Position numbers and translations under genes: made by a program. From NCBI RefSeq assembly GCF_007747215.1, contig NZ_CP036273.1, positions 4,882,322-4,946,321 of the forward strand: a stretch of DNA of 64,000 nt. The letters run 5' to 3'. The notes beneath the pieces were generated by a model that did no database searches, was not told where the DNA came from, and saw only the letters and a list, made by a program, of their open reading frames with translations. Shown here in pieces: positions 14,880 through 50,289 of the stretch (positions within the stretch are counted from its first letter, which is position 1; each line of letters starts with the position of its first letter). The DNA is from Urbifossiella limnaea. Its GTDB lineage: Bacteria > Planctomycetota > Planctomycetia > Gemmatales > Gemmataceae.

Positions 14880-14961
14880 GGCCGCAAAAAGGCACAAAAG
14901 ACACAAAAATAGAACTGATTTTTGATTTTATTTTTTGTGTCTTTTGTGCCTTTTTGCGGCC
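14880..14961. repeat. AT-rich palindrome, 30-bp arms, between sbcD and sbcC
   Basis: The 30-base arms at 14880-14909 and 14932-14961 are exact reverse complements around a 22-base AT-rich spacer. The composition (repeated CACAAAA and AAAGGC runs) contrasts sharply with the surroundings. It resembles dispersed palindromic repeats seen in many environmental bacteria. It could act as a terminator or as a mobile repeat; no ORF spans it. Confidence 0.9.
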
Positions 14962-14988
14962 AACTTGCATCCGCTCGGCGACCCGCAC

Positions 14989-31580: not shown

Positions 31581-31618
31581 AGGCTGTGGTATCATCCTGC
31601 CACGTCGAGGGCACACCC

Positions 31619-32896
31619 ATGCTGAGCGTATACGGCCGGCCCACACGGCTTTGCGACGGAATCACCCGCCGCGAGGTGCTGCGCGTCGGCGGGCTCGCCT
31701 TCGGCGGGCTGACACTCGCCGACGTGCTCCGCGCCCGTGACGCCGGCGCGCCGCGCACCAAGTCGGTCATCATGGTGTGGCTCCGCGGCGGGGCGAGCCA
31801 CATCGACAGCTACGACCCCAAGCCGGACGCCCCGGCCGAGATCCGCGGCGAGTTCGGCACCATCCCGACCGCGCTGCCCGGCGTCCGCTTCACCGAGCAC
31901 CTGCCGTTGCAGGCGCGACTCGCCGACCGGCTCGCCGTCATCCGCGGCATCCACTCCGTGGACATCGGCGACCACACGCCGCACTACATCCTGACCGGCT
32001 TCCCCGACCGCGGCAGGCGGCCCGTCCTCGGCTCCGTGGTCAGCCACTTGCGCGGCCCGGCCGGCGGGCTGCCGCCGTACGTCAGCCTCATGTACGACCC
32101 GCCGAAGCTCTACGACAACGAGGGGCCGACGTACCTCGGGCCGGCGCACCGGCCGTTCGTGCCGCGGCGCGAAGGGCTGGCGAACCTCAGCCCGGCGCGC
32201 GGCGTTTCGACGGAGTTGCTGAACGACCGCACCGCCCTGCTCCGCCGCTTCGACACCATCAACCGCGAGCTAGACCACACCGGCGGTATGGCCGCGCTGG
32301 ACTCACACGCCCAACGAGCGCTGGAGATGGTGGCGTCGCCGCGGGTGCGCGAGGCGTTCGACCTGTCGAAGGAGCCGCTCGCGGCGCGGGAGCGGTACGG
32401 CAAGTACTGCGAGACGTTCCTGCAAGCCCGCCGGCTGGCCGAGGCCGGCGTCGCGGTGGTGACGCTGAAGGTGGGCGACTGGGACACGCACGAGAAGAAC
32501 TTCATCGACCACAAGGACCAGCTGCCGCAACTGGACCGCGGCGTTCACGCGCTCGTGACCGACCTGTACGACCGCGGGTTGCAGGACGACGTGGCGGTGG
32601 TGGTGTGGGGCGAGTTCGGCCGCGCCCCGCGGGTGAGCCGCGGCGACGGCCGCGACCACTGGCCGGACGCCGGCGCGGCGGTGGTTTTCGGCGGCGGGTT
32701 CCGCGTCGGCCAGGTGATCGGCGACACTGACGGCCACGGCGGCCGGTCGCGCGGGGTGCCGTACACGCCGGCGAACGTCCTGTCGAGCCTGTACCGGCAC
32801 CTCGGCATCGACCCGGCGACGACGCTCCCCGACCACGCCGGCCGGCCGATGCACCTCCTCGACGACCGGGCGCCGGTGCGCGAGCTGAACGGGTGA
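31619..32896 (+). CDS. DUF1501 family secreted protein
   Basis: The protein has 425 residues from the ATG at 31619. It begins with a twin-arginine-like region (TRREVLRVGGLAFGGLTLADV). The DUF1501 (sulfatase-like alkaline phosphatase fold) body has SVIMVWLRGGASHIDSYDPK, VIRGIHSVDIGDHTPHYILT, LKVGDWDTHEKNF and VVVWGEFGRAPR. These metal-binding residue clusters are typical. Planctomycetes have many copies, often next to DUF1549/DUF1553 cytochrome genes; no such partner is here. The function is undetermined. The stop is 14 bases from the end of the convergent hydrolase gene. Confidence 0.88.
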   Translation: MLSVYGRPTRLCDGITRREVLRVGGLAFGGLTLADVLRARDAGAPRTKSVIMVWLRGGASHIDSYDPKPDAPAEIRGEFGTIPTALPGVRFTEHLPLQARLADRLAVIRGIHSVDIGDHTPHYILTGFPDRGRRPVLGSVVSHLRGPAGGLPPYVSLMYDPPKLYDNEGPTYLGPAHRPFVPRREGLANLSPARGVSTELLNDRTALLRRFDTINRELDHTGGMAALDSHAQRALEMVASPRVREAFDLSKEPLAARERYGKYCETFLQARRLAEAGVAVVTLKVGDWDTHEKNFIDHKDQLPQLDRGVHALVTDLYDRGLQDDVAVVVWGEFGRAPRVSRGDGRDHWPDAGAAVVFGGGFRVGQVIGDTDGHGGRSRGVPYTPANVLSSLYRHLGIDPATTLPDHAGRPMHLLDDRAPVRELNG

Positions 32897-32910: not shown

Positions 32911-33840
32911 TCAGCCGAGCGGGTGCTTCGCCAGGAACTCTTTGACCTTCCCGATCGCCTCGTCGCCGGCGTCCTCGAGCAGGTAGTGCCCGCAGTCGGG
33001 CCACGTGTGGGTCTCGGCGTGCGGGAAGTGGCGCTGCCACTCGGCCAGGAAGTGCTTGTCGAACACGAAGTCCTTCATCCCCCACAGCAGCAGCGTCGGC
33101 ACCCCGCGGAACCGCTCCAGTGACAACGCGGTGTCACGCACGATGTCGTAGCCGGGGTCCGATTCCGACAACGGAATGGTCTGCACGAACTTCAGCACGG
33201 CGACGCGGTGTTCGGGCGTGTCGTAGGGTGCGAGGTACATCGAACGCACGTCCCGCGGCAGCGGCCGTCGCGTGACGCACCACCGCGCCGCGGCCCGGCA
33301 GAAGGCGTTCCGCTTGAGGATGAGCCACGCCCCGAGCCGCGAATTGCGGCCGACCCGCAGCGTGACCGGCAGCGGCTTCGACGCCGGCAGCGGGAACGCC
33401 CCCGTGTTCGTGGCGACGATCCGCTTCACGCGCTCCGGGTGGCGGGCGGCGTAGGCCATGCCGATCATGCCGCCCCAGTCCTGCACCACGAGCGTGACGT
33501 TTTCGCGCACCCCGAGGTGCTCCAGCAGCGCCTCCAGGTCGTCGACGCGGGACTTCAGCGCGTAGTCGTAGAGCGACTCGGGCGGCTTGTCGGACAGGCC
33601 ACAGCCGATGTGGTCGGGCACGATGCAGCGGTACTTGTCGCGCAGCGCGAGGACGAGGTTGCGGAAGTAGAACGACCACGTCGGGTTGCCGTGAACCATG
33701 ACGACGGGGTCGCCGGCGCCCTCGTCGAGGTAGCTGAGGTGGAGGCCGCTGCGGTCGAAGGTGTGGGGCGTGAACGGGTACAGGCCGGGGTGGGGGAGAG
33801 CCGCTACTTCATTCCGCATTCCGCGCTCCGCGTTCCACAC
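32911..33840 (-). CDS. oleB: OleB-like alpha/beta hydrolase (beta-lactone decarboxylase candidate)
   Basis: The protein has up to 309 residues from a GTG at 33840; an ATG at 33819 is an alternative. The alpha/beta hydrolase core is of haloalkane-dehalogenase type: VMVHGNPTWSFYFRN (oxyanion region), nucleophile Asp121 in VVQDWGGMIG, and the C-terminal His in PDCGHYLLED. OleB belongs to this class and turns cis-beta-lactones into alkenes. The gene starts 3 bases after the oleA-like stop, which strongly favours OleB over a dehalogenase. The first residues are encoded by a short degenerate GCGGAAT repeat, so the exact start is uncertain. Confidence 0.75.
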   Translation of the reverse strand: MWNAERGMRNEVAALPHPGLYPFTPHTFDRSGLHLSYLDEGAGDPVVMVHGNPTWSFYFRNLVLALRDKYRCIVPDHIGCGLSDKPPESLYDYALKSRVDDLEALLEHLGVRENVTLVVQDWGGMIGMAYAARHPERVKRIVATNTGAFPLPASKPLPVTLRVGRNSRLGAWLILKRNAFCRAAARWCVTRRPLPRDVRSMYLAPYDTPEHRVAVLKFVQTIPLSESDPGYDIVRDTALSLERFRGVPTLLLWGMKDFVFDKHFLAEWQRHFPHAETHTWPDCGHYLLEDAGDEAIGKVKEFLAKHPLG

Positions 33841-33843
33841 GGC

Positions 33844-35010
33844 TTACCACTCGATCCCGAGCATGAGGCAGTTCAGGCCGCTGCCGATGCCGAGCCAGCC
33901 GACGCGGTCGCCGGGGCGGAGGAAGTCGCGCTCCTCGGCCAGGGCGGCGGTCAGCGGCAGCGACACGGTGCCGATGTTCCCCAGGAACGGGAACGTGCTG
34001 AAGTCCTTCTCCAGCGGGATGCCGAGCGACCGCAGCACGGTGTCGCGGTGTTGGGACCCGACCTGGTGACAGATCACCTTGTCCACGTACTCCGGCCGCC
34101 AGCCGAACTTCGCCTGGAACATCTGCCAGGTGCGGCCGCCGAGCTCGACGCCGTGCTTCAGCACCTCGCTGGCGTGCGTCTCCATGAACGGGATGCGGAC
34201 GTGCCGCAGGCCGAGGTCGAGCCCTTGCTTCAAGAGCGCCGTCGCCCCGGTGCCGAGGTCGATCCCCTTCTTGACCAGCGCCGACGCGCCTTGGCCGAGT
34301 ACCTTGTCCACGGCCCCGACCGCGGCCGGCAGCACCGACTGCAAGCCCCACTTGCACAGGTGGTGGTGCTGCGTCGCGTTCTGCACCACGCCGCCGACCA
34401 GCCGCCGCCGCTTCGCCCGGCTCAGTTCCTTCCCGGTCACCAGCACGCCGACCGCGCCCGAGCCGCCGGTGAGCGTCGCCACCGACTCGACGAAAAGCTC
34501 GCGGCTGCGGGTGCGGAGCATGCGGTCGATGGTGTGCTCGTTGATCTCGCGGGCCGTCTCCGCGGACACGACCAGCCCCGCCCGGGCCTGCCCGAGTTCG
34601 ATACGGTTGGCCACGTCCACGACACCGTTGAGGACGCCGAGGCAGGCGTTCGACACGTCGTACACGGCGGCGTTAGCGCTGATGCCGAGGCGGTGGGCGA
34701 CGGCGCACGCGGTCGCCGGCTCGAAGTTCTCTCGGCACACGCCGGCATAGATCAGCACGTCGATCTCGGACGGGTCGATGTCGGCGGCGTCGAGCGCCTT
34801 CTTGCCGGCCGCGGCCGCACCCTCCGACAGCGGGTACTCGGGCTCCCACCAGCGGCGCTCGCTGATGCCGGTGAGCAGCTCGAGGTGCCCCGGCTTCATC
34901 CCCATCGCGTCGTAGACCGTGGACAGCCGCGACTCCAGCTCGGCCGTCGAGACGACGACCGGCGCGAGTTCGTAGCCGATCGACTCGATATGGACGCGGT
35001 TGTACTTCAT
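33844..35010 (-). CDS. oleA: OleA-like thiolase (head-to-head acyl condensation)
   Basis: The 388-residue FabH/thiolase-fold enzyme has Cys123 in YDVSNACLGVLNG, His315 in ICHQVGS and Asn345 in LGNIGTVS. Glu97 in CRENFEPATA matches the glutamate used as base in OleA and absent from FabH. OleA joins two acyl-CoA (or acyl-ACP) chains to a beta-keto acid, the first step of long-chain olefin synthesis. An Ala/Gly/Leu-rich insertion of about 50 residues (223-272), with a repeated GIDLG/GLDLG unit, separates CKWG from METHASEVLKHG. It lies 39 bases downstream of the PUFA synthase genes, suggesting that their product is its substrate. Confidence 0.85.
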   Translation of the reverse strand: MKYNRVHIESIGYELAPVVVSTAELESRLSTVYDAMGMKPGHLELLTGISERRWWEPEYPLSEGAAAAGKKALDAADIDPSEIDVLIYAGVCRENFEPATACAVAHRLGISANAAVYDVSNACLGVLNGVVDVANRIELGQARAGLVVSAETAREINEHTIDRMLRTRSRELFVESVATLTGGSGAVGVLVTGKELSRAKRRRLVGGVVQNATQHHHLCKWGLQSVLPAAVGAVDKVLGQGASALVKKGIDLGTGATALLKQGLDLGLRHVRIPFMETHASEVLKHGVELGGRTWQMFQAKFGWRPEYVDKVICHQVGSQHRDTVLRSLGIPLEKDFSTFPFLGNIGTVSLPLTAALAEERDFLRPGDRVGWLGIGSGLNCLMLGIEW

Positions 35011-35049
35011 GGTGGTCCGGCGTCCCTAGCCCGGAGAGGCGGGGCCCGG

Positions 35050-38000
35050 TCATTCTAGGTTGAAGTCGGTCATCTGGTAGATGACACGGCCGTCCACGGT
35101 GAGGAAGCCGTTCGCGGTCAGGCGGCGGGTCGCGTCGTCGGCGGCCGTCACCTCCAGGAGCACCGTCACCTCGCGGTCGGTCGGCAGCACCTGGCCGCGG
35201 TACGTCCACGAGTGCGCGCGGCCGAGCGACAGCTGCCAGCCGCCGGCGGGCGGGTCGCCCCAGCGGCGCCACGCGGCATACTTCAGCAGTTGCAGGAACG
35301 ATTCCAGCCCCAGCGAACCGGGCCACACCGGGTCCTGGTAGAAGTGCGCCTGGAAGAACCAGAAGCCGGGATCGACCGCGATCCGGCCGACGACGAGGCC
35401 GAGCCCCTTCGCCCCGCCGGCCGGCAGGTAAGATTCGATGCGGTCGACCATCCGCATCTGCGGGGCGGGGAACGGCGGGTCGTGCGGCAGCGTGTCGCGT
35501 CCGTAGCGGTCGACGCCCGACGGCCACGGGACGACCGCCTCGCGGATGCCGACCTGGTTCGCCAGCTGCGCGTGCGAGAAGAAGCCGAAGTACGTGGTGC
35601 CCGTGTACACCGGCCCGTGCCGGTCGCTCACTGCCATGTCGTAGTGCTGGATGATCATGCCCGCGGACTTGGACACGTTCGTCATCTTCGCCCGCATCGT
35701 GAGCGTGCCGGTGTCCGGCGTCACGGGCCGGTGCTGCGTCGCCTTGCCGCCGAGGTTGCGGAACTTCAAGTCTTCGGGGCTCGTGAGCGCCGAGCCGCAG
35801 TAGGCCGCGAGCCAGCCGCACGGCTGGAGTGCGATTTCGAGCAACACGCTGAACGGCATGTGGCCCGAGCGCTCGGCGTCGAAGTACCACTCGCCCGGCG
35901 GCACGTCGTACTCGGCGACGCAGGCCGCGCCGGCCTTCAGCACGAACGGCTCGCCCACGACCTCGGTCACCCGATCGACGAAGGCGAACGGCGGCCGCGG
36001 CAGGCGGGCGATCTTGCGGTCGTGGTCGAACACGCGGTACGGCTCGCCGAACGCGTCGGAGGGATTCCCTTCGGCGAAGGCGAGGATGCTCGCGCGGTCG
36101 TAGCGCGGACGGGCCGGTGCCGCAGGCGGGCTCTCCGCCCAGACCGCTTCCAGCCGCTCGCGGGACAGCCCCGACATCCGCAGCGACATGTTCGTGATCT
36201 CGACGATCGGTTTGCCGTCGGCGTACATCAGGGCGTCGGCCAGGCAGTACGGCTCGGGGCGGAAGCCGAGTTCCTTCACCGTCACCTCGTAGGTGACGGT
36301 TTTCGTCGTCTCCAGCACCTGCCCGCGGCACTTCAGCCGGCTGTTCACGCCCGGCACCGGCTCCGTCGCGGCTTCGCCCGCCTCGCACACCCAACCCATG
36401 CGCATCAGCAACACGCGCAACGTGTGGAGGCAGCACTCGTACATCAGCGTGCCGGGCATGACGCGGTCGTCGACGAAGTGGCACGTCAGGAACCAGTCGT
36501 CGGGGTGGATGTCGAACTCGCCGCGGACGAAGCCGATGCCGAAGCGGCCGCCGGCGGGGTCGATCAGCGGCACGCGGTCCACGAGCCGCAACTTGCCGCC
36601 GGGGAGCGGCAGTGGGCGGTGCAGCTTCGCCGCAACGAACGCCGGGCCGAACGCGCCGACGAGGTCGCCCGCCCGCAGCGCGTCCACCTGTGCGGCGTCC
36701 AGGGCGCCCACCGCCTGCGGCACCAGGTCGGCCCAGTCGGCGGGCTTCACACCGGGGAGGCGCTGGCGGTCGAGCGCCGTCTGCACGATCCCCTTCCCGG
36801 CCGCGAGCGCCGCGGCGGTGAAGAACCCGGCCACACCGTTCCGCATCGTGATGAACGGCTCGCCGTTCACGGTGCCGTCGAAGCGGAAGCGGAACAGCCA
36901 GGCGTCGCCCTGCTTCTCGAAGCCGTCGATGCGGATGTCGTAGACGACGGTTTCACCCACGGCCGGCAGCCCGCGGTGGAAGCTGACGACGGCGTCGAGC
37001 AGGCGGTAGACGGCGAGGCCGCGCGTCTCGAAGTCGATACCGAGGAAGCCGGACAGGAACAGGTCGGCCTGGCCCGCTTCGACCGAGATGGCGGTCGGGA
37101 TGCGGCCACTTTCCAGGTACCAGCGGTCGGCGCGGACGGTGTGCGTGGTGACGACGCGGCCGCTCGTCATGGAGCGCGGTTCGCCCTCGATGAGGGTGAT
37201 GGCGTCCACCAACTGGAGTTCCTTGTCGGGGAGGCGGACCCGTGTCGGGAAGGCGTCCGCGCCGGCGAACAGCGGTCCGAGCGCGTCGCCGACCTTACCC
37301 GCAGCGAAGGTGCAGCACTGCTCGAAACTGAGGGCTCGGGGCACGCTCGCCTCCGGGCGAGCGGCCGGAGTCAGCCGGCTGTTGTCGGGCGCCACGGGAG
37401 GCGCGCCGCCCGCCATCTGGAGCAACTGCGTCTGGAAGCGCACGACGCCGGCGGCAGTGTCGAGCAGGCGCTGGTTCAGCCGAAGGAACGTCTCCTGGGC
37501 GCGCATCATCTCGGCGCGGGCGTCGCACGTCGCGGCAATGGCCGGCGACAAATCGAACGCCGGTGACACCACGGTGTCAGTAACTCGCTCAAGCCTCGGC
37601 TCCGTGTGCGTGTCCACCACCTCCATCGCCGGAAGGTCGAGCCACGTCTGGGTGTGGGTCACCGTCTCCGGCGGCTCGGGGATCGTCGGCGCGGACACGT
37701 GCCACACGTCGCCGGCCGGTTCCGGTTTCGGCTCGGGCGGCGCCGGCGGACGGTTCCCCACGGGCACCACGACCACCGCGCCGCTCTCGGCCGCGGCAAC
37801 CCGGTGGCCGACGCAGTGCGACTCGCCGCCGTACAGCGCCGCGAGGTCGACCGGAACCCGTTCGGCGGCGAGCGCCGCGATCAACCGCAACACCTGAGAG
37901 ACGGCGTCGGCCTTGCCGGCGTGTGCGGCCCGCGCCAGGTGCGGCTTGTCGGCGAGGATCGTCCCGATCATCCGCGTACACGACGCCCCCGGCCCGACCT

Positions 38001-41000
38001 CGACGAACACCCGCACCCCGTCGCGGTACGCCGCCCGCACCACCGCCGGCACGTCGATCGGCCCCACCAGCCCGGCCGTGATGGAGTCCGCGGCGGCGCG
38101 CTCGGTCACCGGATAACTCTTGCCCCACGCGCCGCTGTACACGGTGACGCCCGGCGGCGGAGTCACCGGCAGCGTGTGGAGTTCGCGGTACGCCACCTCG
38201 ACCGGCCGGCCGGCGTCGCAGTGGGCGAGCGTCACGCCGGACAGCGGGAAGAACGGCCCGCCGAGCGCCGCGGCCAGCTTCGCCACGTCGGCCCGATCGC
38301 CGCCGATGACGCACTCCGTCGGCGTGTTCACGATCAGTAGGTACGCCCGCAGCCCCGGCCGCAGCGCCGCCACCACGTCGTCCGCGGACGCGGCCACCAC
38401 GCCGGCCGCCCAATCGACTTCCTTCTCCCTCGGCACGCCCCAGTGGGCACGAGCCGCGTCGTAGGGCGGGGCCAGGTCCGACACGAACAGCGACGACTCG
38501 CGCATCCGCCGGTACATCTCGTCGCGGCCGGGCCACGCGCGGACGCCGAACAGGCCCGCCGACTCGCCGAGGCTCAGGCCGATCATGGCGTCGCACGGGA
38601 CGCCGAACGAACGGACCACGTCGGACACGAGCGACCCGACGGTCACCTGTCCGAACATCAGGTCGCGGTGCGGGGCGGCGTCGGCGGGAGCGTCCCAGAA
38701 CAGCTCGGGGGCGAACTGGCTGCGGAGCAACTCGTTCTCCGCGTGCTGCCGGCGCAGCACCGCGGGCCACTGCGCGGACAGGTCGCGGCCCATGCCGTCG
38801 AACTGGTTGCCGGAGCCGGGGTAGACGAACGCCACCTTCGCCTTCGGGCCGAGTGGGGCGGGCGAATAGAACACGCGGTCGCGGAGCGCCGGCCGCGGGT
38901 CGGGCGGCAGCGGCAGCGTCGGGTCCGAGCGCAGGTGCGCCCGCAGGTACTCGGCCTGCTCGACCAACTCGCCCGCCGACCGGGCGACGAACGCGGCAGC
39001 GACCTTCGCCCGCTGGTCGGGTGGGTTTGCGGCAAACCAGCGGCGGGCCAGCGCCTCGACGCCGCCATCCCGGTGAGCGGCCGCGAACGTCAGGTCAGCG
39101 GTCGCCGGTACGAGCGCATCGGCAGTCGCGGCTTCGACCACAAATACGGCCTCGTCGCGCGCCCCGAGCGGCTGCCGGCGGTCGGTGGCGTCAGCAGCCC
39201 CGCGGTACTCCTCGAGCGCGAACACGAGGCACGAGCCGTCCGCGCCGCGAGCCGGCACCACGGCGCGGCGCGGGCCTTCGGTCCGATCGTGGAGCCAGTA
39301 CCGCGGTGAACCCGGCACCGGCTGCACCCCCTGGTACAGCGCCAGGCACGCCTTCGCCAGCGACGCCGCGGCCGACGCCGCGCCAACGGCACCCACGTCC
39401 GGCCCCGCGTCGAACGGCACGGCGCCGTCGGTCGCGGCCTCGTCGCGCGCCCGGTTCAGCGCGAGCGTCAGCACGTCGGCGGTGGGGCTGTCGCCGGCCG
39501 GATCGCCGCCGCCGGCCACGCCGACCCCGCGGACCAGCGCGTACACCCGGTCGCCGTCGCGCTCGGCGTCGGCGAGCCGCTTCAGCACGAACGCCGCGGC
39601 CCCGTCGCCGGGCGTCGCCAGGTTCCCCCCCAGGACGGTCCGCGGGTCGCCGACGAGTTCCACGCCGCCGGCCACGGCCCGGTCGATCTCGCCGGCCTGG
39701 AGGGCGCGCACGGCCAGTTCGACGGCGCGGGCAGCGCTCGCTTCTTCGCTGCAAACGGTGTGGCTCGGCCCGCCGAAGTGGAAGGTGCGGGCGATGCGGC
39801 TCGCGGCGATGCTGCCGAGGGCGCCCATCACGCGGTTAGCGGTGAGCGGCGGCGAGGCCGCGTCCGCGTCGCCGCCGCGGGCCAGTTCGGCCCAGCGGAG
39901 GTGGTAGTTCGTCGTGTTCGGGTCGAGCCCGAGGCCGACGAACACGGCCGTGCCCGGGTCACCGTCCGCCGGCGGCTCGAACCGCCCTCGCACGGCGTCG
40001 TCGAGCGCCGCGGCCGCGACGTTGAGCATGAGCAACTGCTGCGGCAGTGCGTCCTCCAGTTCCTTCGGCGGGACGCGGAACCGGTCGATCGGCACCGCCA
40101 GCTCGTCGATCAGGAAGCCCGGCGGGCACGGCCCGGCGGCGCGGCCCCAGCCGTTGACCTTCGGCACGGGCGAGGCTGGCGCGGCGTTGAGGACGTGTTC
40201 CTGGAAGGTTCGCAGGTCCGCCCACGGGCCGAAGTGCGCGGCCATCCCCACGACGGCGACGGGCACCGCCGGCGGCTGCGGGCGAACGACCGCGGCGGGG
40301 GCGGGCTCGACCTTCGCCTGACGGGCCGTGACGAGTTTGAGCGGCGCCCCCACCGGCTTCGCGGGAACCGGCGGCTCCTGCCCCGTCCACTCCTCCAGCA
40401 GCAGGTGGGCGTTCACGCCGCCGAAGCCGAAGCCGCTCACGGCCGCGCGGCGCGGCTCGTTCCCGCGGCGCTCCCACGGCTCGACCGCTTCCAACACGCG
40501 GAACGGTCCGTCGGCGTACTTCAACCCGGGCGCCGGCGCGCGGAAGTTGGCCTGCGGCGGCAGCGTGCCGGCGGCGAACGCGCCGAGTACCTTCGCCACC
40601 GCCGCGGCTCCGGCCCCGGTCAGCAGGTGGCCGACGCTCGACTTCACGCTGCCAATGACGCACCGACCGCCGGCGTCGCCCCGGAGCTCGCGGAGGCTGT
40701 CGAACTCGACCGCGTCGCCGACGGGCGTGCCGGTGGCGTGGCACTCGACCAACCCCACGTCGCCGGGCGACCACCCGGCCGCGGCGTAGGCGCGACGCAT
40801 GGCCCGCAACTGGCCCTCCTTCGCGGGGGCCAACAGGTTGCCGTGCATGTCGTTCGACAGGCCGCAGCCGGCGATCACGGCCAGGATCGTGTCGCCGTGC
40901 GCGAGCGCGTCGGAGAGCCGCTTCAGCACGAACACCGCGGCCCCTTCGCCGACCATGAGCCCGTCGGCGGCCGCGTCGAACGGGGCACACCGGCCGGTCG

Positions 41001-41682
41001 CCGAGAGCGCCCGAAGCTGCGCGAAGCCGAGCTGCGTGTACTGCGGGTCGGCGCCGTTGGCCCCGCCGGCGAGCATGGCGTCGGCCCGGCCGGCGAGGAG
41101 TTCGTCGGCCGCGAGCTTGAGCGCGTACAGCGACGAGGCACACGCCGCGTCGAGTGTGAAGCTGCCGCCGCCGAGCCCGAGCGCCTTGGCAAGCACGCCC
41201 GCCGGCAGCCCCGCGACGTAGCGGTTGAGCGGGTGCGTACGCCGCTCCTCGCCGCCGAGGTATTCGCGGCACAGGGCGTTGGCCCCCATCGTCGGCAGGC
41301 AGATGTTCCCGAGTACGACGCCGACGCGAGAGCGGTCTACGGCGGCGGTCCTCGCGGACCGCCAGGCGCGGTTGCCGGCGTCGAGGACGGTGTGGAACAG
41401 CGTGTCGAGCTGGGCGACGAGCGCGGCCTCGATGCCGAGGCCAGTCAGGTCAGGGGTGAAGGGGTCGAGGTAATAGCCGCGGGAGTGCGGGGCGGAATCG
41501 GGGTGCGGGACGCGCGGGTCGAGACACTTCTCGGGCGGCAGGTGCCAGCGGCCGGCGGGCACGTCGCGAGCCAGATCGCGGGCGGCGGCCACGTCGGCCC
41601 AGAAGGCGGCGATGTCGGCCCCGGCCCCGGGCAGCCGCACTCCGACTCCGACGATCGCTACCCGCTCCGGCACAGCTGTCAT
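35050..41682 (-). CDS. PUFA synthase subunit, PfaB/PfaC-like: KS-CLF-AT-DH-DH
   Basis: The 2210-residue protein starts at an ATG at 41682 with AAGGA upstream. An active ketosynthase (1-435) has Cys181 (DAACASS), His315 (CHATGT) and His352 (GHLLTG). A second KS-like unit (475-830) keeps Cys644 but lacks both His motifs, as in chain-length factors. An acyltransferase (about 945-1290) has Ser1037 in GLSLGES, the PfaB variant of GHSxG. Four hotdog units follow, forming two FabA-like dehydratase pairs. The second of each pair carries the catalytic-type CHFVDDRVMPGTL or AHFYQDPVWPGSL (His2113). No AGPAT domain is present at the C-terminus. Confidence 0.9.
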   Translation of the reverse strand: MTAVPERVAIVGVGVRLPGAGADIAAFWADVAAARDLARDVPAGRWHLPPEKCLDPRVPHPDSAPHSRGYYLDPFTPDLTGLGIEAALVAQLDTLFHTVLDAGNRAWRSARTAAVDRSRVGVVLGNICLPTMGANALCREYLGGEERRTHPLNRYVAGLPAGVLAKALGLGGGSFTLDAACASSLYALKLAADELLAGRADAMLAGGANGADPQYTQLGFAQLRALSATGRCAPFDAAADGLMVGEGAAVFVLKRLSDALAHGDTILAVIAGCGLSNDMHGNLLAPAKEGQLRAMRRAYAAAGWSPGDVGLVECHATGTPVGDAVEFDSLRELRGDAGGRCVIGSVKSSVGHLLTGAGAAAVAKVLGAFAAGTLPPQANFRAPAPGLKYADGPFRVLEAVEPWERRGNEPRRAAVSGFGFGGVNAHLLLEEWTGQEPPVPAKPVGAPLKLVTARQAKVEPAPAAVVRPQPPAVPVAVVGMAAHFGPWADLRTFQEHVLNAAPASPVPKVNGWGRAAGPCPPGFLIDELAVPIDRFRVPPKELEDALPQQLLMLNVAAAALDDAVRGRFEPPADGDPGTAVFVGLGLDPNTTNYHLRWAELARGGDADAASPPLTANRVMGALGSIAASRIARTFHFGGPSHTVCSEEASAARAVELAVRALQAGEIDRAVAGGVELVGDPRTVLGGNLATPGDGAAAFVLKRLADAERDGDRVYALVRGVGVAGGGDPAGDSPTADVLTLALNRARDEAATDGAVPFDAGPDVGAVGAASAAASLAKACLALYQGVQPVPGSPRYWLHDRTEGPRRAVVPARGADGSCLVFALEEYRGAADATDRRQPLGARDEAVFVVEAATADALVPATADLTFAAAHRDGGVEALARRWFAANPPDQRAKVAAAFVARSAGELVEQAEYLRAHLRSDPTLPLPPDPRPALRDRVFYSPAPLGPKAKVAFVYPGSGNQFDGMGRDLSAQWPAVLRRQHAENELLRSQFAPELFWDAPADAAPHRDLMFGQVTVGSLVSDVVRSFGVPCDAMIGLSLGESAGLFGVRAWPGRDEMYRRMRESSLFVSDLAPPYDAARAHWGVPREKEVDWAAGVVAASADDVVAALRPGLRAYLLIVNTPTECVIGGDRADVAKLAAALGGPFFPLSGVTLAHCDAGRPVEVAYRELHTLPVTPPPGVTVYSGAWGKSYPVTERAAADSITAGLVGPIDVPAVVRAAYRDGVRVFVEVGPGASCTRMIGTILADKPHLARAAHAGKADAVSQVLRLIAALAAERVPVDLAALYGGESHCVGHRVAAAESGAVVVVPVGNRPPAPPEPKPEPAGDVWHVSAPTIPEPPETVTHTQTWLDLPAMEVVDTHTEPRLERVTDTVVSPAFDLSPAIAATCDARAEMMRAQETFLRLNQRLLDTAAGVVRFQTQLLQMAGGAPPVAPDNSRLTPAARPEASVPRALSFEQCCTFAAGKVGDALGPLFAGADAFPTRVRLPDKELQLVDAITLIEGEPRSMTSGRVVTTHTVRADRWYLESGRIPTAISVEAGQADLFLSGFLGIDFETRGLAVYRLLDAVVSFHRGLPAVGETVVYDIRIDGFEKQGDAWLFRFRFDGTVNGEPFITMRNGVAGFFTAAALAAGKGIVQTALDRQRLPGVKPADWADLVPQAVGALDAAQVDALRAGDLVGAFGPAFVAAKLHRPLPLPGGKLRLVDRVPLIDPAGGRFGIGFVRGEFDIHPDDWFLTCHFVDDRVMPGTLMYECCLHTLRVLLMRMGWVCEAGEAATEPVPGVNSRLKCRGQVLETTKTVTYEVTVKELGFRPEPYCLADALMYADGKPIVEITNMSLRMSGLSRERLEAVWAESPPAAPARPRYDRASILAFAEGNPSDAFGEPYRVFDHDRKIARLPRPPFAFVDRVTEVVGEPFVLKAGAACVAEYDVPPGEWYFDAERSGHMPFSVLLEIALQPCGWLAAYCGSALTSPEDLKFRNLGGKATQHRPVTPDTGTLTMRAKMTNVSKSAGMIIQHYDMAVSDRHGPVYTGTTYFGFFSHAQLANQVGIREAVVPWPSGVDRYGRDTLPHDPPFPAPQMRMVDRIESYLPAGGAKGLGLVVGRIAVDPGFWFFQAHFYQDPVWPGSLGLESFLQLLKYAAWRRWGDPPAGGWQLSLGRAHSWTYRGQVLPTDREVTVLLEVTAADDATRRLTANGFLTVDGRVIYQMTDFNLE

Positions 41683-41778
41683 CCGCGGTCCTTTCCCGTG
41701 TATCCACCCCTGCCGGACGCGCCGCGGCCCGCCCCTCGTCGGGACGGGCCGCTGTCCCGCAACCGACGCCCGCACCGT

Positions 41779-44700
41779 CTACGCCTTCACCGCCCCGAGT
41801 TTGTTGCGGGTGAATGCCGCGTTAAGCGTGTCCGTCATCATGCACTCGTAGTCCTGGAGCTGCGCCACCACCTGGCCGTCGGCGTCGAGGTAGTCGATGT
41901 CCGCCCGCGCGAACGTGCCGTTGTCGCGCGTCACCCGGGCCACCACCGTCACCGGGCCGTCGGGGAAGTGGCGGCGGAACTGGCGGTACCGGCCGGCGAA
42001 GTTCGGCAGGCTCGCCGCCCCGTGCTGGTGCCGGCTCCACAGGATCATCAGCTGGAAGCTCGCGTCGAGCACCAGCGGGTCGGCCACCCACTGGCTCCGC
42101 AGCGGGTACGTCAGCCAGTCGGCGGGCGGCGGGGCCGTCGTCGCGGCACCCGTGATCGCCAGCTCGGCCACGCCGTCCACGCGCTCGATGCCGTGCAGGT
42201 CGGGGCCGTGGAACAGCAGGTCGCGGTACACGTCGGCCATCGGGTGCGGGTACGGCGCCACCGCCGGCGGGCGGTCGGCGGCCGGCGGCTTCGGAAGCGC
42301 CGACACCAGGATCACCTCGGCCCGCGACTTGATGACCTCGCGGCCGTCCTTCTTCTTCCCGCGCAGCTCGACCGGCACCAGGAATAGCTTGTCCTGCCGT
42401 GCCGCCTTGCCGGCGTAGGCACGGACGGCGAGCGAGTCCCCGGGGTCGAGCTTCACCCCGGCGGTAATGCGCAAGTCGTTGAACCCGTGAAACACGAGCC
42501 CGGGGTGGCCGTGCAGTGCGGCGTGGGCCAGGAACTCCAGGTGCAGCGCCATCGGCAGCACGGCCCGGCCGTCGAGCACGTGCGACCGCAGCACCGGGTG
42601 TGTGTCCACGTCGAGGGCCCGCTCGAACGCCAGCGCCAGGTCGGGGTTCGGCACGGCAGAGTGGGTGCCGGAGCCGGGCGGCGCCGGGGTGGCCGTGCCG
42701 AACCCCGCCGGCACCGGAACTGTGCCCGACCCGCCGGCGCGAGCCTTCCCCATCGCCAGCACTTCCACGGCACGCCCGGCCGCGGACAACTCGTTCACCA
42801 GGAACGTCGCCCCGTCGGCGAGGGGAATCAGCCCGACGCCCTCGGCCTCGAACTGCCTCCGCAGGCCGGGCGTCACCATGCCGCCCTCCCACGGCCCCCA
42901 GTTCACGCACACCACGCGGCACCCCGGCCGGCGGCGGGCCTCCACCTGCGCCGTCTTGTTCAGCACCTCGTTCGCGCAGGCGTAGGCCAACTGCCCGGTA
43001 CGGCCGAACCGCCCGGTCATCGAGCCGAACAGCACCAGCGCCTTCAAGTCTTCGTGGGCCAGCAGGTCGAGCAGGTTCCGCAGGCCGTCCACCTTCGTGC
43101 GGTAGACGCGGTCGAAGTCGTCGCCGGTCAGGTCTTCGATGCGGCGGTCGGCGAGGACGCCGGCGCCGTGGACGACGGCCGAGACCGGGCGGTACTTCGA
43201 CCGCACCTTCAGGAGCAGGTCGGCGACGGCGCGCTCGTCCCCGGCGTCGACGGCGAAGTACTCCGCCTTCGCGCCGGCCGTTTCGATCCGGGCCAGCGTG
43301 CGGCGGATCTCGCGCTGGGCGGTCACCTTGCCGTACTGCTCGCCGATCTGCTTCGGGCCGGCGTCGGGGCCGAGCCTTGCGGCCAGCGCCTTCTTGATGT
43401 CGGCCTCGGCAGTCAGCCCGACGAGCCAGTCCGGCTCGGCACTCGGCGGCGGCGTGCGGCCGGTGAGGATCAGCGTCGAACCGAACGTCTCGGCGAGGGC
43501 AACGGCGGCCTCGGCGGTCACGCCGCGGCCGCCGCCGGTGACGAGGATCACGTCCTTCGGCCCGAGACCGACCGGCTGTCCGCCGGCGCGGCGGACGGTG
43601 CGGGCGAGTTCAACGGTCCCGCGGTGTGTCGCGGTGACGCCGACTTCGAGCGGGCCGGCGGCGAGGATTTCCTCCGCCAGTGCCGCGGCTGCGGACGGGC
43701 CGTCGAACGCCGGGTCCAGGTCGATGGCCTTGCAGTTCACCTCGGGCCACTCGTGCCGGGCCGTTTTGACCAGCCCGGCGAAGCCCCCGGCCGCGGGGTC
43801 GGTGTCCGGGGACAGGTGGTTGAGGCCGAACGCGCCGTCGAGCCGGGCGACCGTTACGAAGACGGCCCCGCCGCTCTGCCGGCCCGTCTGCCGGAGCCGC
43901 CCGCCGACGGCGTGGAGCCAGTCGAACGCCCGGCGGTTGAGCGTGTTGTCCGGCCACGGCGTCGGCGGGGCGAGGAGCACGAGCCCGGCCAGCGGCGCGG
44001 CCGGCTTGTTGGTGCCGGGGCCGGACCAGCCCATGACCCGCGCCGCGAACCCGGCCGCCGCCAGCCGTTCGGCCACGCCGTCGGTCAGGGCGTCCGGCTC
44101 GCCGACGACCCACACCTCGGCCCCGGCCGGGACCGGCACGCGCGACCGCGGCGTGGCCGTGTCCAGGTCCACGAGTTGCAGGATGCTGCGGTCCACCTTC
44201 TCGGTCGAACCGGCGGACTGACGCGGCGAGTCGGTGCGGCCGTTGGCGGGGGCGGCGGCCGGGTGGATGTGCGTCACCTGCTCCGTCAGCGGTGCAGAGA
44301 GTTCGGTCGGCGGCGCCGCTAGCACCGGCGTGCGGAACGTGGACGGCCCGCCGTCCGTCGCCGGCACGATCGGCATCCGCGCCGTAACGGGGGCTTCGGG
44401 CACGGGGAACGACTTGCGACCGCCGAGGAAGTTGGCCAGGTCTTGCAGCGTGTGCAGCGTGCCGAGGTGCTCGGGCTTCACGGCCGGGGCGTCGGGCAGC
44501 TTCTCCTGCAGGGCCGACAGGATTTCCACACGCTTGATCGAATCCACACCCAGGTCGGTGTCGAGGCTCTGCGTGAGGTCGAGACTCACGACGGGGTACC
44601 CGGTCTTCTCCGCGACCACCTCCAGCAGCACGCGCGTGACGTCGGCGGCGGGGTCGGCCGGCTTCTCAGGTTCGGCCTGAACGATCAACGGCAACTTCTC

Positions 44701-47700
44701 GGGGCCGACCGGGACGGTGCGGGTCAAGTCGTCATCGCCGACGGGCGCGACGGCGGTGCCACCGCCGAGGAAGTCGGCCACGTCCTTGAGCGTGTGCAGC
44801 GTGCCGAGGTGCTCGGGCTTCACGGCCGGGGCGTCGGGCAGCTTCTCCTGCAGGGCCGACAGGATTTCCACACGCTTGATCGAATCCACGCCCAGGTCGG
44901 TGTCGAGCCCCTGCGACAGGTCGAGGCTGCCGACGGGGTAGCCGGTCTTCTCCGCGACCACCTCGAGAAGCGTTCGCTCGATTCGGTCCCGGTTGCCGGT
45001 CGGCTTCGGCGCCGCCGGCACGACCGGGTTCGGGACCGGCGCGGGCCGGGGAACGGGCGCGGCGACCGGAGCCGGCGGCGCGTACGCGACCAGCGGCGGG
45101 AGCGGCGGCAGCACAACCGGCGGCGGGAGCGGCGGCAGCGCCACGCCCGCACCGATGCTCCCCATCAGCAACGCCTGCTGCTGCTCCACCAGCGCCTGGA
45201 GCGTACGCTGTGCCGCCTCTTGCGACTCGAGAAACTGCCGGTGCAGCGACGCGGCCTGCTCCTGCATCCGCTGGAGTGCGGCGAGGCTCTGCTGCGTCGC
45301 GGACAGCGCCTGAGCGAGGGCGGTGGGGTCGGTCATCGCGGAGCCCCGGGCGGGGGTGGGAGACGGTTTCGGCTTGCCGTTCACGTGTGGCGTCGGCCGC
45401 GGCGGCAGGGCGGGGCGCGGGTTTATGTGGTTCGCCCCGGTCAGCGGGACGATCAGGCCGGGCTTCGAGTCCGGGGCCGGCGGCCGGCAGCGGCTGCCGG
45501 CTTCCCACTCGGTCAGCCGCACGGCCACGCCGCGCGCCGCGAGGCGGGCGAGCGTATTCCCGAAGTCTAGCACGCCGGGCCGCTTCCCCCCAGTAGCATC
45601 GACCGCGAACACGTCCGCGTCGCCCACGCCGGCGTCGGCCAGCGTCGCCTCGACGAGCCGCGTCAGCACCGCCCCGGGGCCGACCTCGACGAACGTCCGC
45701 ACCCCGGCCGCGGCCAGTGCCTTTACTTCGTCCACGAACGCGACGGGATTCGCCAGTTGGTTCGCCAGCAAGTCCTTCGCGGCGGCCGCGTCGGCGGGGT
45801 ACGGCGCGGCCGTCGTGTTGGCGAACACCGGGGCCGCGCCCGCGGCGAGCTCCACGGCGTTCAGTGCCTCCCTCAGCGGACCGGCGGCGTCGGCGACGAA
45901 CGCGCTGTGGAACGCCGCGGCGACCGGCAGCCGGGCGCACTTCACGCGCGCGGCCGCGAACGCCCCCGCGGCCCGCTCGATCTCGGCGGTGCCGCCCGAG
46001 AGTACCGTTTGTGCCGGGGCGTTGCGGTTGGCGACGACGACGTTCAGGCTCTCGCGGCGGATCACGGCGTCGATGTCGGCCGCGGGGGCGAACACGGCGA
46101 GCATGGCGCCGGCGTCGCCGTCGCGGCCCTTGGCCATGAGTTCGCCGCGCAGGCGGGACAGCGTGAACAGGTCGGCGGCGCTCAGACGGCCGGCGGCGGC
46201 CAGGGCAACGAGTTCGCCGTAGCTGTGCCCGGCGAACGCGGCCGGCTTCAGGCCGAACCGCTCGCTCAACACGCGCCACGCCCCCCAGCTCACGGCACCG
46301 ATCGCGGGCTGCGCCGAGCGTGTGTCGCGGAGGGAATCGTCGTCCGCCTTCGCGGCGGTGGCGTCGAAGCGGCTCGGCGGGTAGACGCGGTCCGTGAGGC
46401 GGACGCCCGCTGTGGCAGGCACGGCGTCGTTCGCCGCGGCCAGCGATTCCAGCACTTCCGGGAACAAGCACGCCAGGTCGCGGAGCATCCCGACCTGCTG
46501 CGAGCCCTGCCCGGGGAACAGCACCGCGACCGCCCCCGGAGCCGCGCCGCGGCCGTAGTGGACGCCGTCCGGCGTGTGCCAGCTCGCCGCGTTCGGTTCG
46601 CCCCGAAGCTTCGCCGCAACCGCGCCGAGCACCTTCGACAGTTCGGTGCGGGTGCGGTGCGCCGCGAACGCCAGCCGGCAGTCCGCGGACGTGTCGAACG
46701 CGGCCCGGCTCGCCTCCGCGGCGCGGGCGAAGTCGTCCCATTCGGTCGGCAGCGATTCGACCTTTGCGGCCAACTCGGCCGGCGTCGCGGCTCCGAGAGC
46801 GACGACTTCGACGCCGCCGTCCCAGTCGGGGGCGGCCTTCGCGGGGCGGTATTCTTCGAGCACCGCGTGGAAGTTGCTGCCGCCGAACCCGAACGCCGAC
46901 AGCCCCGCCCGCCGCGGGTGCTCGGCCCGCGGCAGCCACGGGCGGGCCACGGTGTTGACGTAGAACGGTGAGTCGGCCGCGCGGAACGGCTCGACCGGCT
47001 GCTTCACCTTGAGCGTCGGCGGCAGCACCTTGTGGTACAGGGCCAGCGCCGCCTTCACCAGCGACGCCGCGCCGGCCGCCGCCTTCGTGTGGCCGATCTG
47101 CGACTTCACCGAACCCACGGCGCACCACGGCCGCGGCTTCGACGTGTCGCCGCCGAACACCTCGACCAGCGCCGTGGCTTCCACGGTGTCGCCGACCTTC
47201 GTGCCGGTGCCGTGCGCCTCCACCAGTTCGACCGTGCCGGGGTCCACGCCGGCGATTGAATACGCCGTGCGGAGGCAGCGCCGCTGCCCCTCGGCGCTCG
47301 GGGCGTAGATCGCGTTCCCCTTGCCGTCGCTGCTGGAGCCGATCCCTTTCAGGACGGCGTAGATCGTGTCGCCGTCGCGCTCGGCGTCGGCCAGCCGCTT
47401 CAGCACGACGACGCCAAGGCCTTCGCCGAGGATGGTGCCGTCGCCGTCGGCGTCGAACGGCTTCGCGTCCCCGGTCGGCGACAGCGCCGGGGTCTTCGAG
47501 AAGCACATGTACATGAAGATGTCGTTGAACGTGTCGATGCCGCCGGTCACGACCACGTCCGACCGCCCGGCCTGTAATTCGAGCGCGGCGAGATGCACAG
47601 CCGACAGCGAGCTGGCGCACGCCGCGTCCACGACGCAGTTGGTGCCGCCGAGGTCGAGCTTGTTGGCGATGCGGCCGGCGACGACGTTCCCGAGCAGGCC

Positions 47701-48240
47701 GGGGAAGCTGTTCTCCTGCCACGGCACGTAGCTGGCCGCGATGCGGGCGGCGGCGTCGGCGGCGGCGTCGTCCGGGACGCCGGCGTCCTTCATCGCCCGC
47801 TTCCACTTCGGGTGCCCGAGCCTGGCGCCGAGCGGGATCACCAGCTCCAGCGTGCCGGTGACACCGAGGATGACGGACACCCGTTCGAGCCGCTTCGAGG
47901 CGTTCCCGAGGCCCGCGTCGGTGAGCGCCTGGCGGGCAGCGACGAGCCCGAGGAGTTGGCTCGTGTCCGTGGCTTCCACGTCGCGCGGCGGGATGCCGAA
48001 GTCCATCGGCCGGAACGGCACTGCGTCCAGGAACCCGCCGCGGCGGGCGTAGGTCATGTCCGGCGTTTTCGGGTCGGGGTCGAAGTAGTCGTCCGGGTTC
48101 CAGTGCGACGCCGGGATCTCGGTGATGCCGTCGACGCCGTTCTTGACGTTCGCCCAGAACGCGCCCGGCCCCGCCGCCTTCGGGAACAGGCAGCCGATGC
48201 CGACGATCGCCAGCGGGGTGTTGCCGGTCGCGGTGTTCAA
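41779..48240 (-). CDS. pfaA: PUFA synthase subunit, PfaA-like: KS-AT-ACP-ACP-KR-DH
   Basis: The 2153-residue multidomain synthase has a ketosynthase at 8-468 with Cys208 (DAACASS), His343 (HGTGT) and His384 (GHTKAAAG). The malonyl acyltransferase at about 570-880 has Ser673 (GHSYGE) and His778 (AFHS). A Gln/Ala coiled linker and a Pro-rich stretch follow. Two acyl carrier proteins have phosphopantetheine sites Ser1120 and Ser1234 (LGVDSIKR). The ketoreductase is at about 1360-1830 (VTGGGRGVTAE). A PKS-type dehydratase, with hotdog start DTHPVLRSHVLDG, ends the protein. Two ACPs is a low number for PfaA. Each round of chain extension and reduction would run on these ACPs. Confidence 0.93.
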   Translation of the reverse strand: MNTATGNTPLAIVGIGCLFPKAAGPGAFWANVKNGVDGITEIPASHWNPDDYFDPDPKTPDMTYARRGGFLDAVPFRPMDFGIPPRDVEATDTSQLLGLVAARQALTDAGLGNASKRLERVSVILGVTGTLELVIPLGARLGHPKWKRAMKDAGVPDDAAADAAARIAASYVPWQENSFPGLLGNVVAGRIANKLDLGGTNCVVDAACASSLSAVHLAALELQAGRSDVVVTGGIDTFNDIFMYMCFSKTPALSPTGDAKPFDADGDGTILGEGLGVVVLKRLADAERDGDTIYAVLKGIGSSSDGKGNAIYAPSAEGQRRCLRTAYSIAGVDPGTVELVEAHGTGTKVGDTVEATALVEVFGGDTSKPRPWCAVGSVKSQIGHTKAAAGAASLVKAALALYHKVLPPTLKVKQPVEPFRAADSPFYVNTVARPWLPRAEHPRRAGLSAFGFGGSNFHAVLEEYRPAKAAPDWDGGVEVVALGAATPAELAAKVESLPTEWDDFARAAEASRAAFDTSADCRLAFAAHRTRTELSKVLGAVAAKLRGEPNAASWHTPDGVHYGRGAAPGAVAVLFPGQGSQQVGMLRDLACLFPEVLESLAAANDAVPATAGVRLTDRVYPPSRFDATAAKADDDSLRDTRSAQPAIGAVSWGAWRVLSERFGLKPAAFAGHSYGELVALAAAGRLSAADLFTLSRLRGELMAKGRDGDAGAMLAVFAPAADIDAVIRRESLNVVVANRNAPAQTVLSGGTAEIERAAGAFAAARVKCARLPVAAAFHSAFVADAAGPLREALNAVELAAGAAPVFANTTAAPYPADAAAAKDLLANQLANPVAFVDEVKALAAAGVRTFVEVGPGAVLTRLVEATLADAGVGDADVFAVDATGGKRPGVLDFGNTLARLAARGVAVRLTEWEAGSRCRPPAPDSKPGLIVPLTGANHINPRPALPPRPTPHVNGKPKPSPTPARGSAMTDPTALAQALSATQQSLAALQRMQEQAASLHRQFLESQEAAQRTLQALVEQQQALLMGSIGAGVALPPLPPPVVLPPLPPLVAYAPPAPVAAPVPRPAPVPNPVVPAAPKPTGNRDRIERTLLEVVAEKTGYPVGSLDLSQGLDTDLGVDSIKRVEILSALQEKLPDAPAVKPEHLGTLHTLKDVADFLGGGTAVAPVGDDDLTRTVPVGPEKLPLIVQAEPEKPADPAADVTRVLLEVVAEKTGYPVVSLDLTQSLDTDLGVDSIKRVEILSALQEKLPDAPAVKPEHLGTLHTLQDLANFLGGRKSFPVPEAPVTARMPIVPATDGGPSTFRTPVLAAPPTELSAPLTEQVTHIHPAAAPANGRTDSPRQSAGSTEKVDRSILQLVDLDTATPRSRVPVPAGAEVWVVGEPDALTDGVAERLAAAGFAARVMGWSGPGTNKPAAPLAGLVLLAPPTPWPDNTLNRRAFDWLHAVGGRLRQTGRQSGGAVFVTVARLDGAFGLNHLSPDTDPAAGGFAGLVKTARHEWPEVNCKAIDLDPAFDGPSAAAALAEEILAAGPLEVGVTATHRGTVELARTVRRAGGQPVGLGPKDVILVTGGGRGVTAEAAVALAETFGSTLILTGRTPPPSAEPDWLVGLTAEADIKKALAARLGPDAGPKQIGEQYGKVTAQREIRRTLARIETAGAKAEYFAVDAGDERAVADLLLKVRSKYRPVSAVVHGAGVLADRRIEDLTGDDFDRVYRTKVDGLRNLLDLLAHEDLKALVLFGSMTGRFGRTGQLAYACANEVLNKTAQVEARRRPGCRVVCVNWGPWEGGMVTPGLRRQFEAEGVGLIPLADGATFLVNELSAAGRAVEVLAMGKARAGGSGTVPVPAGFGTATPAPPGSGTHSAVPNPDLALAFERALDVDTHPVLRSHVLDGRAVLPMALHLEFLAHAALHGHPGLVFHGFNDLRITAGVKLDPGDSLAVRAYAGKAARQDKLFLVPVELRGKKKDGREVIKSRAEVILVSALPKPPAADRPPAVAPYPHPMADVYRDLLFHGPDLHGIERVDGVAELAITGAATTAPPPADWLTYPLRSQWVADPLVLDASFQLMILWSRHQHGAASLPNFAGRYRQFRRHFPDGPVTVVARVTRDNGTFARADIDYLDADGQVVAQLQDYECMMTDTLNAAFTRNKLGAVKA
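44447..44907. repeat. Near-identical tandem ACP coding repeats
   Basis: Bases 44447-44565 and 44789-44907 are identical at all but one of 119 positions, offset by 342 bases. They encode the core of ACP2 and ACP1 of the PfaA-like protein. The identity is far higher than needed for protein conservation, so duplication was recent or gene conversion keeps the copies alike. Confidence 0.85.
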
Positions 48241-48279
48241 CGCAGGGGTTCCTCGAAGCGCGGGGGCGACACGGCCGCT

Positions 48280-49920
48280 CTAGCTCAGACGCTGTTCGAT
48301 CTCGGCGCGATCGACGGGTGCGAGGGCGAAGCACTCGTCGGGGAAGTTCACGCCCTGCTGCCGCAGCGCCTGGCGCCGCAGCACGACGCACGCCCCGGCC
48401 AACAGGTTCAGCGCGACGCCCACCACGGTGCGGTTCGCGGGGCTCTCCAGCGGCGAGCCCTTCGCCCACTCGTTGAACGCCCCCATCGCGGGGCCGCACC
48501 ACACCTGGTAGTCGAGCTGCCGCGTCGGCTCGCCCGCGTTCGCCCACCGGCTCGACAGCCCCAGGTACCAGCGGAACACGAGCGCCATCAGGTGCCGCGG
48601 GTCGGCGTCCGCCTTCGCCACCTGACCCGGCTCGCGGCCCTGCCAGAAGGCGCGCGTCTCGTCCCACCGCTGCTCGAAGGACGCCTTCAGGTGCGTCTTC
48701 TCAACCTGGACGCGCTCCGCGGCCGGGATCGCTTCCCAACTCGGATAGGCGCGGTACAGGTCGTACAGCTTCTGCGCACGCATCGGGAACATGGTGCCGC
48801 GCTTGAGCACCTGCAGCTTCACGCCCATCTCGAACATGTCGGCCGCGGGGGCCATCGTCACGTCGGCCTGACCCGCCTCGGCGAGCATCTTCCGCACGGC
48901 GTCCGAGCTGCCGGACTCGACGCACGCCTGGTTCACGCTGCCGGTCACGACGTAGGCCGCACCCATGGCGAAGGCCGCGGCCACGGAGGACGGCGTGGCG
49001 ATGCCGCCGGCCAACCCGACGCGCGGCGGCGTGGCGTACTTGAACTGCGCCTGCAACCTGTCGCGCAGGGCCAGGATCGTCGGCAGGAGCGTGATCGCCG
49101 GGCGGTTGTCGGTGTGGCCGCCGCTGTCGGCCTCGACCGTCACGTCGTCGGCGACCGGGAAGCGAGCCGCGAGTTGGGCCTGCGTCGCAGTGACGTGCCC
49201 GGCGGCGACCAGTTCCTTGAGGATGCGCTCGGGCGGCGGCGAAAGGAACTTCGTCGCCACCTCGACGCGGCTCACCTTCCCGATGACGTGGTTCAGCGGG
49301 TACGCCATGCCGCCGACGCCGCCCTTGAACCCAGCCACCCGGTAGCGCACGATCGCCGGCGTGAGGTCGAGGTAGGCGCTGGCCTCCACCAGCGGCACGC
49401 CCCGCTGCAACAGGAGTTCGGCCGTCGCCATCTCGTGCGCTGGCTCGCCGGGGCTGTGGATCAAGTTGACGCAGTACGTCGCGCCGCCGACCGCGGCCTG
49501 AATCTCGTCGATGGCCTGCGCGATCCGCGGCAGCGACTGGCCGGCGGCGCCGTAGCTGCCGAGCATCCCCGCCTTCGCCATCTCGATCACCACCTCGGCC
49601 GACGCGATGCCGTTCGCCATCGCCCCGGTCTTGTACGCGAAGCGGAGGGCGTGATCGGCGCGGAACGTCGGGTCGCCGAGTTGCTCCGGCCGCAGCGGCG
49701 GCAGATACGCCAGCACCGGCACGCCGTCCGCGGCGCCCAGTTGAACGCGCCCACCAGCCGCGATAGCGGGGCCGTGTTTGGTTTCGACGACGACGACGGG
49801 CGAACCCAGATCGCTAACCGCGGCGCGGAGAGCGGCCGGGTCGTCGGTCGGGGCGGAGTCGCCGGGCACCCACGAACCGAGGGGGGCGAACGGGCGGCTG
49901 GTCCCGGCCGGGTGCGACAT
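48280..49920 (-). CDS. pfaD: PfaD-like trans-acting enoyl reductase
   Basis: The 546-residue FMN-dependent TIM-barrel enzyme is of the nitronate-monooxygenase/PfaD type. Family blocks are AEVVIEMAKAGMLGSYGAAG, TYCVNLIHSPGEPAHEMATA, FPVADDVTVEADSGGHTDNR and GLAGGIATPSSVAAAFAMGA. The C-terminal helical part has KTHLKASFEQRWDETRAFW, as in PfaD. It reduces enoyl intermediates in trans during PUFA assembly. It is the first gene of the operon, 39 bases upstream of the PfaA-like gene. This ER-first order is like that of myxobacterial pfa1-pfa2-pfa3. The 136-base gap to the divergent nifU-like gene must hold both promoters; no clear consensus is seen. Confidence 0.92.
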   Translation of the reverse strand: MSHPAGTSRPFAPLGSWVPGDSAPTDDPAALRAAVSDLGSPVVVVETKHGPAIAAGGRVQLGAADGVPVLAYLPPLRPEQLGDPTFRADHALRFAYKTGAMANGIASAEVVIEMAKAGMLGSYGAAGQSLPRIAQAIDEIQAAVGGATYCVNLIHSPGEPAHEMATAELLLQRGVPLVEASAYLDLTPAIVRYRVAGFKGGVGGMAYPLNHVIGKVSRVEVATKFLSPPPERILKELVAAGHVTATQAQLAARFPVADDVTVEADSGGHTDNRPAITLLPTILALRDRLQAQFKYATPPRVGLAGGIATPSSVAAAFAMGAAYVVTGSVNQACVESGSSDAVRKMLAEAGQADVTMAPAADMFEMGVKLQVLKRGTMFPMRAQKLYDLYRAYPSWEAIPAAERVQVEKTHLKASFEQRWDETRAFWQGREPGQVAKADADPRHLMALVFRWYLGLSSRWANAGEPTRQLDYQVWCGPAMGAFNEWAKGSPLESPANRTVVGVALNLLAGACVVLRRQALRQQGVNFPDECFALAPVDRAEIEQRLS

Positions 49921-50056
49921 CGCGGGGGGTGGCTCGTGGGGCGGATCGTGCGGTCACAGTAAGACTTAGGGAAACCCCTCTGCCCCGTACAGGGTTCGCG
50001 GCTGGGCCGACTTTCGTAGGATAGGTGTGGCTCGAATTCGCCCGGAGAATCGACCG

Positions 50057-50287
50057 ATGGACCTACGTTCCCGCGTCGAACAAGCCCTCCGCGACGAGGT
50101 GGCCCCCGCCCTCTCCCTGGACGGATCGCGCATCGAGGTCGTCGAGGTGACCGACGGCATCGCCTCGGTCCGGCTCGCCGGCGTCTGCGGCGGCTGCCCC
50201 GCGACGGTGTGGACGCTCCTCGGGTCGATCGAGGCCGAGTTGCGGGCGCGGGTGCCGGAGATCGAACTGGTGGAAGCGGTAGGCTGA
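50057..50287 (+). CDS. NifU-like C-terminal domain Fe-S scaffold protein
   Basis: The 76-residue protein starts at an ATG at 50057. It consists of a single NifU C-terminal domain with the CxxC cluster-binding pair in LAGVCGGCPAT. Stand-alone versions (Nfu type) carry and transfer Fe-S clusters in the cytoplasm. It is divergent from the PUFA operon. It is followed after 2 bases by a TIM-barrel gene, so the two are translationally close. Confidence 0.9.
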   Translation: MDLRSRVEQALRDEVAPALSLDGSRIEVVEVTDGIASVRLAGVCGGCPATVWTLLGSIEAELRARVPEIELVEAVG

Positions 50288-50289
50288 CC

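Follow-up and report, generated by a model that had tools for sequence, protein, structure and literature searches.

Unlike the locus described here, the pfa and ole genes of Shewanella lie at separate loci, and PfaB is a separate protein. EPA and hentriacontanonaene (C31:9) are both obtained from one synthase in Shewanella, and OleA alone leads to a ketone through spontaneous decarboxylation (PMC6463001). In recombinant E. coli, the OleA of S. pealeana draws on acyl chains of the Pfa synthase, giving a 31:8 ketone (PMC6463001). Photobacterium profundum possesses oleABCD and pfa genes, yet no hydrocarbon was detected in it (PMC6463001); therefore, genes alone do not prove the product. Geobacter bemidjiensis carries the tandem pfaD,A,B,C,oleA,B,C,D,pfaE and makes hentriacontanonaene (PMC4882568). 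The Type I cluster of Shulse and Allen (2011), in which Gemmata obscuriglobus is included, is defined by a PfaBC fusion; ole genes are often linked to clusters of this type, and the supply of olefin precursors was already proposed for them (PMC3098273). In marine systems, the PfaB-type acyltransferase is a terminal acyltransferase (PMC12895367). A 2025 paper describes the products of PUFA synthases of the Gemmata type, and of related ones, as still unconfirmed (PMC11837533), and a literature search found no reported product of any Gemmataceae Pfa synthase.

The window, a stretch of 64,000 nucleotides from the genome of Urbifossiella limnaea, contains a joined pfa-ole cluster (Table 1). Such joined clusters are already known, the present one is another, ordinary member, and the idea of the linkage is not new. 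The earlier note had started from separate pfa and ole loci, which holds for Shewanella but not in general, as seen from the G. bemidjiensis tandem (PMC4882568) and the Type I linkage (PMC3098273). The window cluster agrees with that of G. bemidjiensis in its gene families and, over the part running from pfaD through oleB, in their order; it differs in that oleC, oleD, and the PPTase gene are unlinked and in that its OleA carries a loop of about 45 residues. With Type I of Shulse and Allen (2011) it shares the PfaBC fusion and, through G. obscuriglobus, the phylum, and no essential difference was found. With the Shewanella hentriacontanonaene pathway it shares the enzymes and, presumably, the hand-over of acyl chains from Pfa synthase to OleA (PMC6463001). 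Taken as a whole, the cluster is probably a Type I (PfaBC-fusion) secondary-lipid synthase joined to the olefin pathway, with a polyene hydrocarbon as its product.

Table 1. Genes of the pfa-ole cluster, with positions in the window.
Gene	Position	Strand	Product or domains	Supporting matches
pfaD	48280..49920	-	Enoyl reductase, PfaD family; operon gene no. 1	
pfaA	41779..48240	-	KS-MAT-ACP-ACP-KR-DH	TIGR02813, Pfam domains, active-site motifs
pfaC with fused PfaB-type acyltransferase	35050..41682 (ATG start); alternative 35050-41775 (GTG start)	-	KS-CLF-AT-DH-DH	Pfam and NCBIfam domains
oleA	33844..35010	-	Head-to-head acyl condensing thiolase, 388 aa	NF006720, structure matches 3ROW/3S21
oleB	32911..33840	-	Alpha/beta hydrolase, candidate beta-lactone decarboxylase	Abhydrolase, haloalkane-dehalogenase-like

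The earlier description of five minus-strand genes agrees with the coordinates obtained here. All five ORFs are co-directional and separated, from pfaD to oleB, by gaps of 39, 96, 39, and 3 bases when pfaC is read from its ATG; with the GTG start, the pfaA-pfaC gap shrinks from 96 to 3 bases. Catalytic residues were found in every domain by motif inspection. Genes on the opposite strand border the five-gene unit at both ends, and the upstream neighbours are divergent. From the sequence, we infer that the unit may be co-transcribed. A promoter scan returned none and a terminator scan gave no excess over shuffled sequence, both scans being uninformative in this GC-rich DNA. At the downstream border, the gene for a DUF1501 protein (31586-32896) converges on oleB and ends 14 bases from its stop codon. 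A 207-aa minus-strand ORF at 49966-50589 was ruled out as a sixth operon gene, since it lies opposite better-scoring coding frames on the plus strand.

Family scans and active-site motifs agree with the identities first given to the five genes (PfaD, KS-AT-ACP2-KR-DH, KS-CLF-AT-DH-DH, OleA, and OleB). PfaD, present in a single copy in the genome, matches TIGR02814 with 633 bits (cut-off 449), and PfaA matches TIGR02813 with 1383 bits (cut-off 1010). The tandem ACPs of PfaA are marked by two GVDSIK motifs with the ACP serines, and the motifs of the KS (Cys), MAT (Ser), KR, and PS-DH (His) are likewise intact in the Pfa proteins. The pfaC ORF encodes 2241 aa from the GTG start, comprising KS, CLF, PfaB-family AT, and FabA-type DH domains. 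Residues 970-1314 form the PfaB-family stretch, which matches TIGR02816 with an E-value of 6e-19, under the model's own cut-off. Two active FabA-type DH motifs are present in PfaC, each paired with a degenerate partner. Overall, three traits of Type I are present: a PfaA with the order KS-MAT-tandem ACP-KR-DH, a PfaB-PfaC fusion, and a stand-alone PfaD.

OleA is the only protein in the genome over the cut-off of NF006720/PRK09258 (466 bits, cut-off 285), and a search of the genome revealed no second oleA or pfa locus. Its best structure match is X. campestris OleA (3ROW/3S21), and the catalytic residues Cys123, His315, Asn345, and Glu97 are conserved relative to 3ROW. Compared with X. campestris OleA, it carries about 45 additional aa in a loop at about residues 226-272. 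The insertion is lineage-specific, ranging in length from 0 to about 65 residues across Gemmataceae, and the OleAs of Geobacteraceae lack it as judged by their length. In the AlphaFold model of OleA (pLDDT 85.6), the loop at 228-269 is almost wholly below a pLDDT of 50. OleB has numerous haloalkane dehalogenases among its best matches and an HGNPTWS motif; its active site is intact, with the nucleophile Asp in QDWGG and the His in CGHY.

The genes oleC and oleD, which the earlier note overlooked, were found elsewhere in the same genome, a single contig of 7.8 Mb. They lie at 5956670-5959368, about 1.04 Mb from oleB, overlap by 4 bases, and are both intact. OleC is the only protein in the genome over the NF006754 cut-off (683.8 bits, cut-off 478), OleD scores 450.8 bits with its model, under the cut-off of 580, and both fall under the strict equivalog cut-offs for Xanthomonas and Shewanella. 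In four of five congeners oleC directly follows oleB, and the remaining congener has the same split as the window genome. A frame of 247 aa for an Sfp-type PPTase, a candidate PfaE, is located at 4.159 Mb, unlinked to the pfa operon. It is proposed that oleCD moved away from the cluster in a recent ancestor. The split weakens the single-operon argument in this genome. It also offers a naturally occurring example with which to ask if the OleBCD complex depends on its genes being linked in one operon.

The probable pathway can be described as follows. PfaD, PfaA, and PfaC would assemble a polyunsaturated acyl chain in repeated cycles, carried by PfaA's tandem ACPs. These ACPs would be activated by the Sfp-type PPTase, whose gene lies in another part of the genome. 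OleA would take two such chains, most likely straight from the ACPs, and join them by head-to-head condensation, yielding a 2-alkyl-3-keto acid. This acid would be reduced by OleD, after which OleC would close a beta-lactone, these two enzymes acting in trans from their distant locus. Decarboxylation of the beta-lactone by OleB would then give a long polyene hydrocarbon, probably hentriacontanonaene or a close relative. We infer the enzyme activities and the length of the acyl chain, as well as the hand-over from the ACPs and the product, from the genes. Because genes for all the Ole enzymes and for a PPTase are present, the product is more likely to be a polyene hydrocarbon, for instance C31:9, than a ketone or a membrane PUFA. 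Lipid data on Gemmataceae hydrocarbons, those of the source organism included, were not found in the openly accessible literature.

If the distant OleC and OleD were not co-expressed with OleA, the end product could instead be a polyunsaturated ketone or a beta-lactone. The distance of oleCD from the cluster and the ketone formed by OleA on its own (PMC6463001) are in line with such an outcome, which is nevertheless quite improbable: OleB, OleC, and OleD are all intact, and the age of the split is such that a congener whose OleC is 82% identical to that of the window genome has it too. Therefore, the distant oleCD genes have been kept. Limnoglobus roseus, a cultured member of Gemmataceae with a split at another site, also retains oleC. 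It was initially suggested that the product is a polyene hydrocarbon or ketone and not a membrane PUFA. An Ole-type polyene, rather than a membrane PUFA only, is still favoured, while the ketone has become less likely because oleCD is intact and retained.

The comparison across genomes bears on whether pfa and ole belong together at all. In Gemmataceae, the usual order is pfaD-pfaA-pfaC-oleA-oleB-oleC-oleD, found in most of the loci with enough flanking sequence; thus, the search for the same gene order in this family, suggested at the outset, was positive. Among 80 related named loci, from Planctomycetota, Geobacterales, Desulfobacterota, Acidobacteriota, Elusimicrobiota, Verrucomicrobiota, and others, pfaC adjoins oleA on its upstream side in 68; six of the other 12 have less than 4 kb of upstream sequence. 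OleA and PfaD occur together in 71 of 95 Gemmataceae genomes and are both absent from 16, with OleA only in two and PfaD only in six (Fisher p 2e-11, a value that overstates the association since shared ancestry is ignored). In all 29 Gemmataceae genomes having both on one contig, the two are no more than 17 kb apart. A chance juxtaposition of pfa and ole neighbours with no shared pathway is scarcely credible; nothing in its favour was found, and it is already contradicted because the gene order is conserved, in several phyla, and the families are present or absent together. The results support the view that pfa and ole belong to a single conserved gene unit. The assumption that they serve one pathway, made from the window alone, is supported by the conserved order, the co-occurrence, the intact residues, and the S. 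pealeana data on OleA and Pfa (PMC6463001).

In the OleA tree, the window OleA groups with those of Geobacteraceae and other pfa-linked OleAs in one clade, and the OleAs from other planctomycete families sit apart. The Geobacteraceae proteins are 54-58% identical to the window OleA over the best segment, and those of the other planctomycete families 33-39% (tblastn); the latter have no pfa or oleB neighbours in the stretches read. One MAG record is titled Candidatus Kuenenia stuttgartiensis; its title may be a misassignment, because two Planctomycetaceae MAGs have an OleA and a pfa-ole cluster similar to its own in identity and layout.

It is also conceivable that the Pfa synthase has a mixed output, with membrane-lipid PUFA as the main product besides the Ole precursor. 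Shewanella, where a single synthase gives rise to both EPA and C31:9 (PMC6463001), offers a precedent, and the PfaB-type acyltransferase, terminal in marine systems (PMC12895367), is fused into PfaC here. We regard such a division as unlikely, since PfaD without OleA is rare in Gemmataceae (six of 77 PfaD-bearing genomes, all six multi-contig drafts) and no further acyl-release gene lies in the operon. The rarity of PfaD without OleA suggests that supplying the Ole branch is what the synthase is for, and there is a strong hint that pfa genes of planctomycetes serve the making of hydrocarbons. Returning to the polyene hydrocarbon as the favoured product, it may tentatively be extended to a stricter form, in which the Gemmataceae Pfa synthase would serve the Ole pathway alone. 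Planctomycete pfa genes would then be hydrocarbon rather than PUFA genes, possibly with a product other than C31:9 and with the OleA insertion docking the ACPs of the Pfa synthase; this is a possibility less probable than not. Planctomycete PfaA sequences counted as PUFA producers in environmental surveys may belong to hydrocarbon makers.

Elsewhere in the window, the gene for a long coiled-coil SbcC-like ATPase (14935-18150) falls where the AT skew is high, at 14-18 kb.
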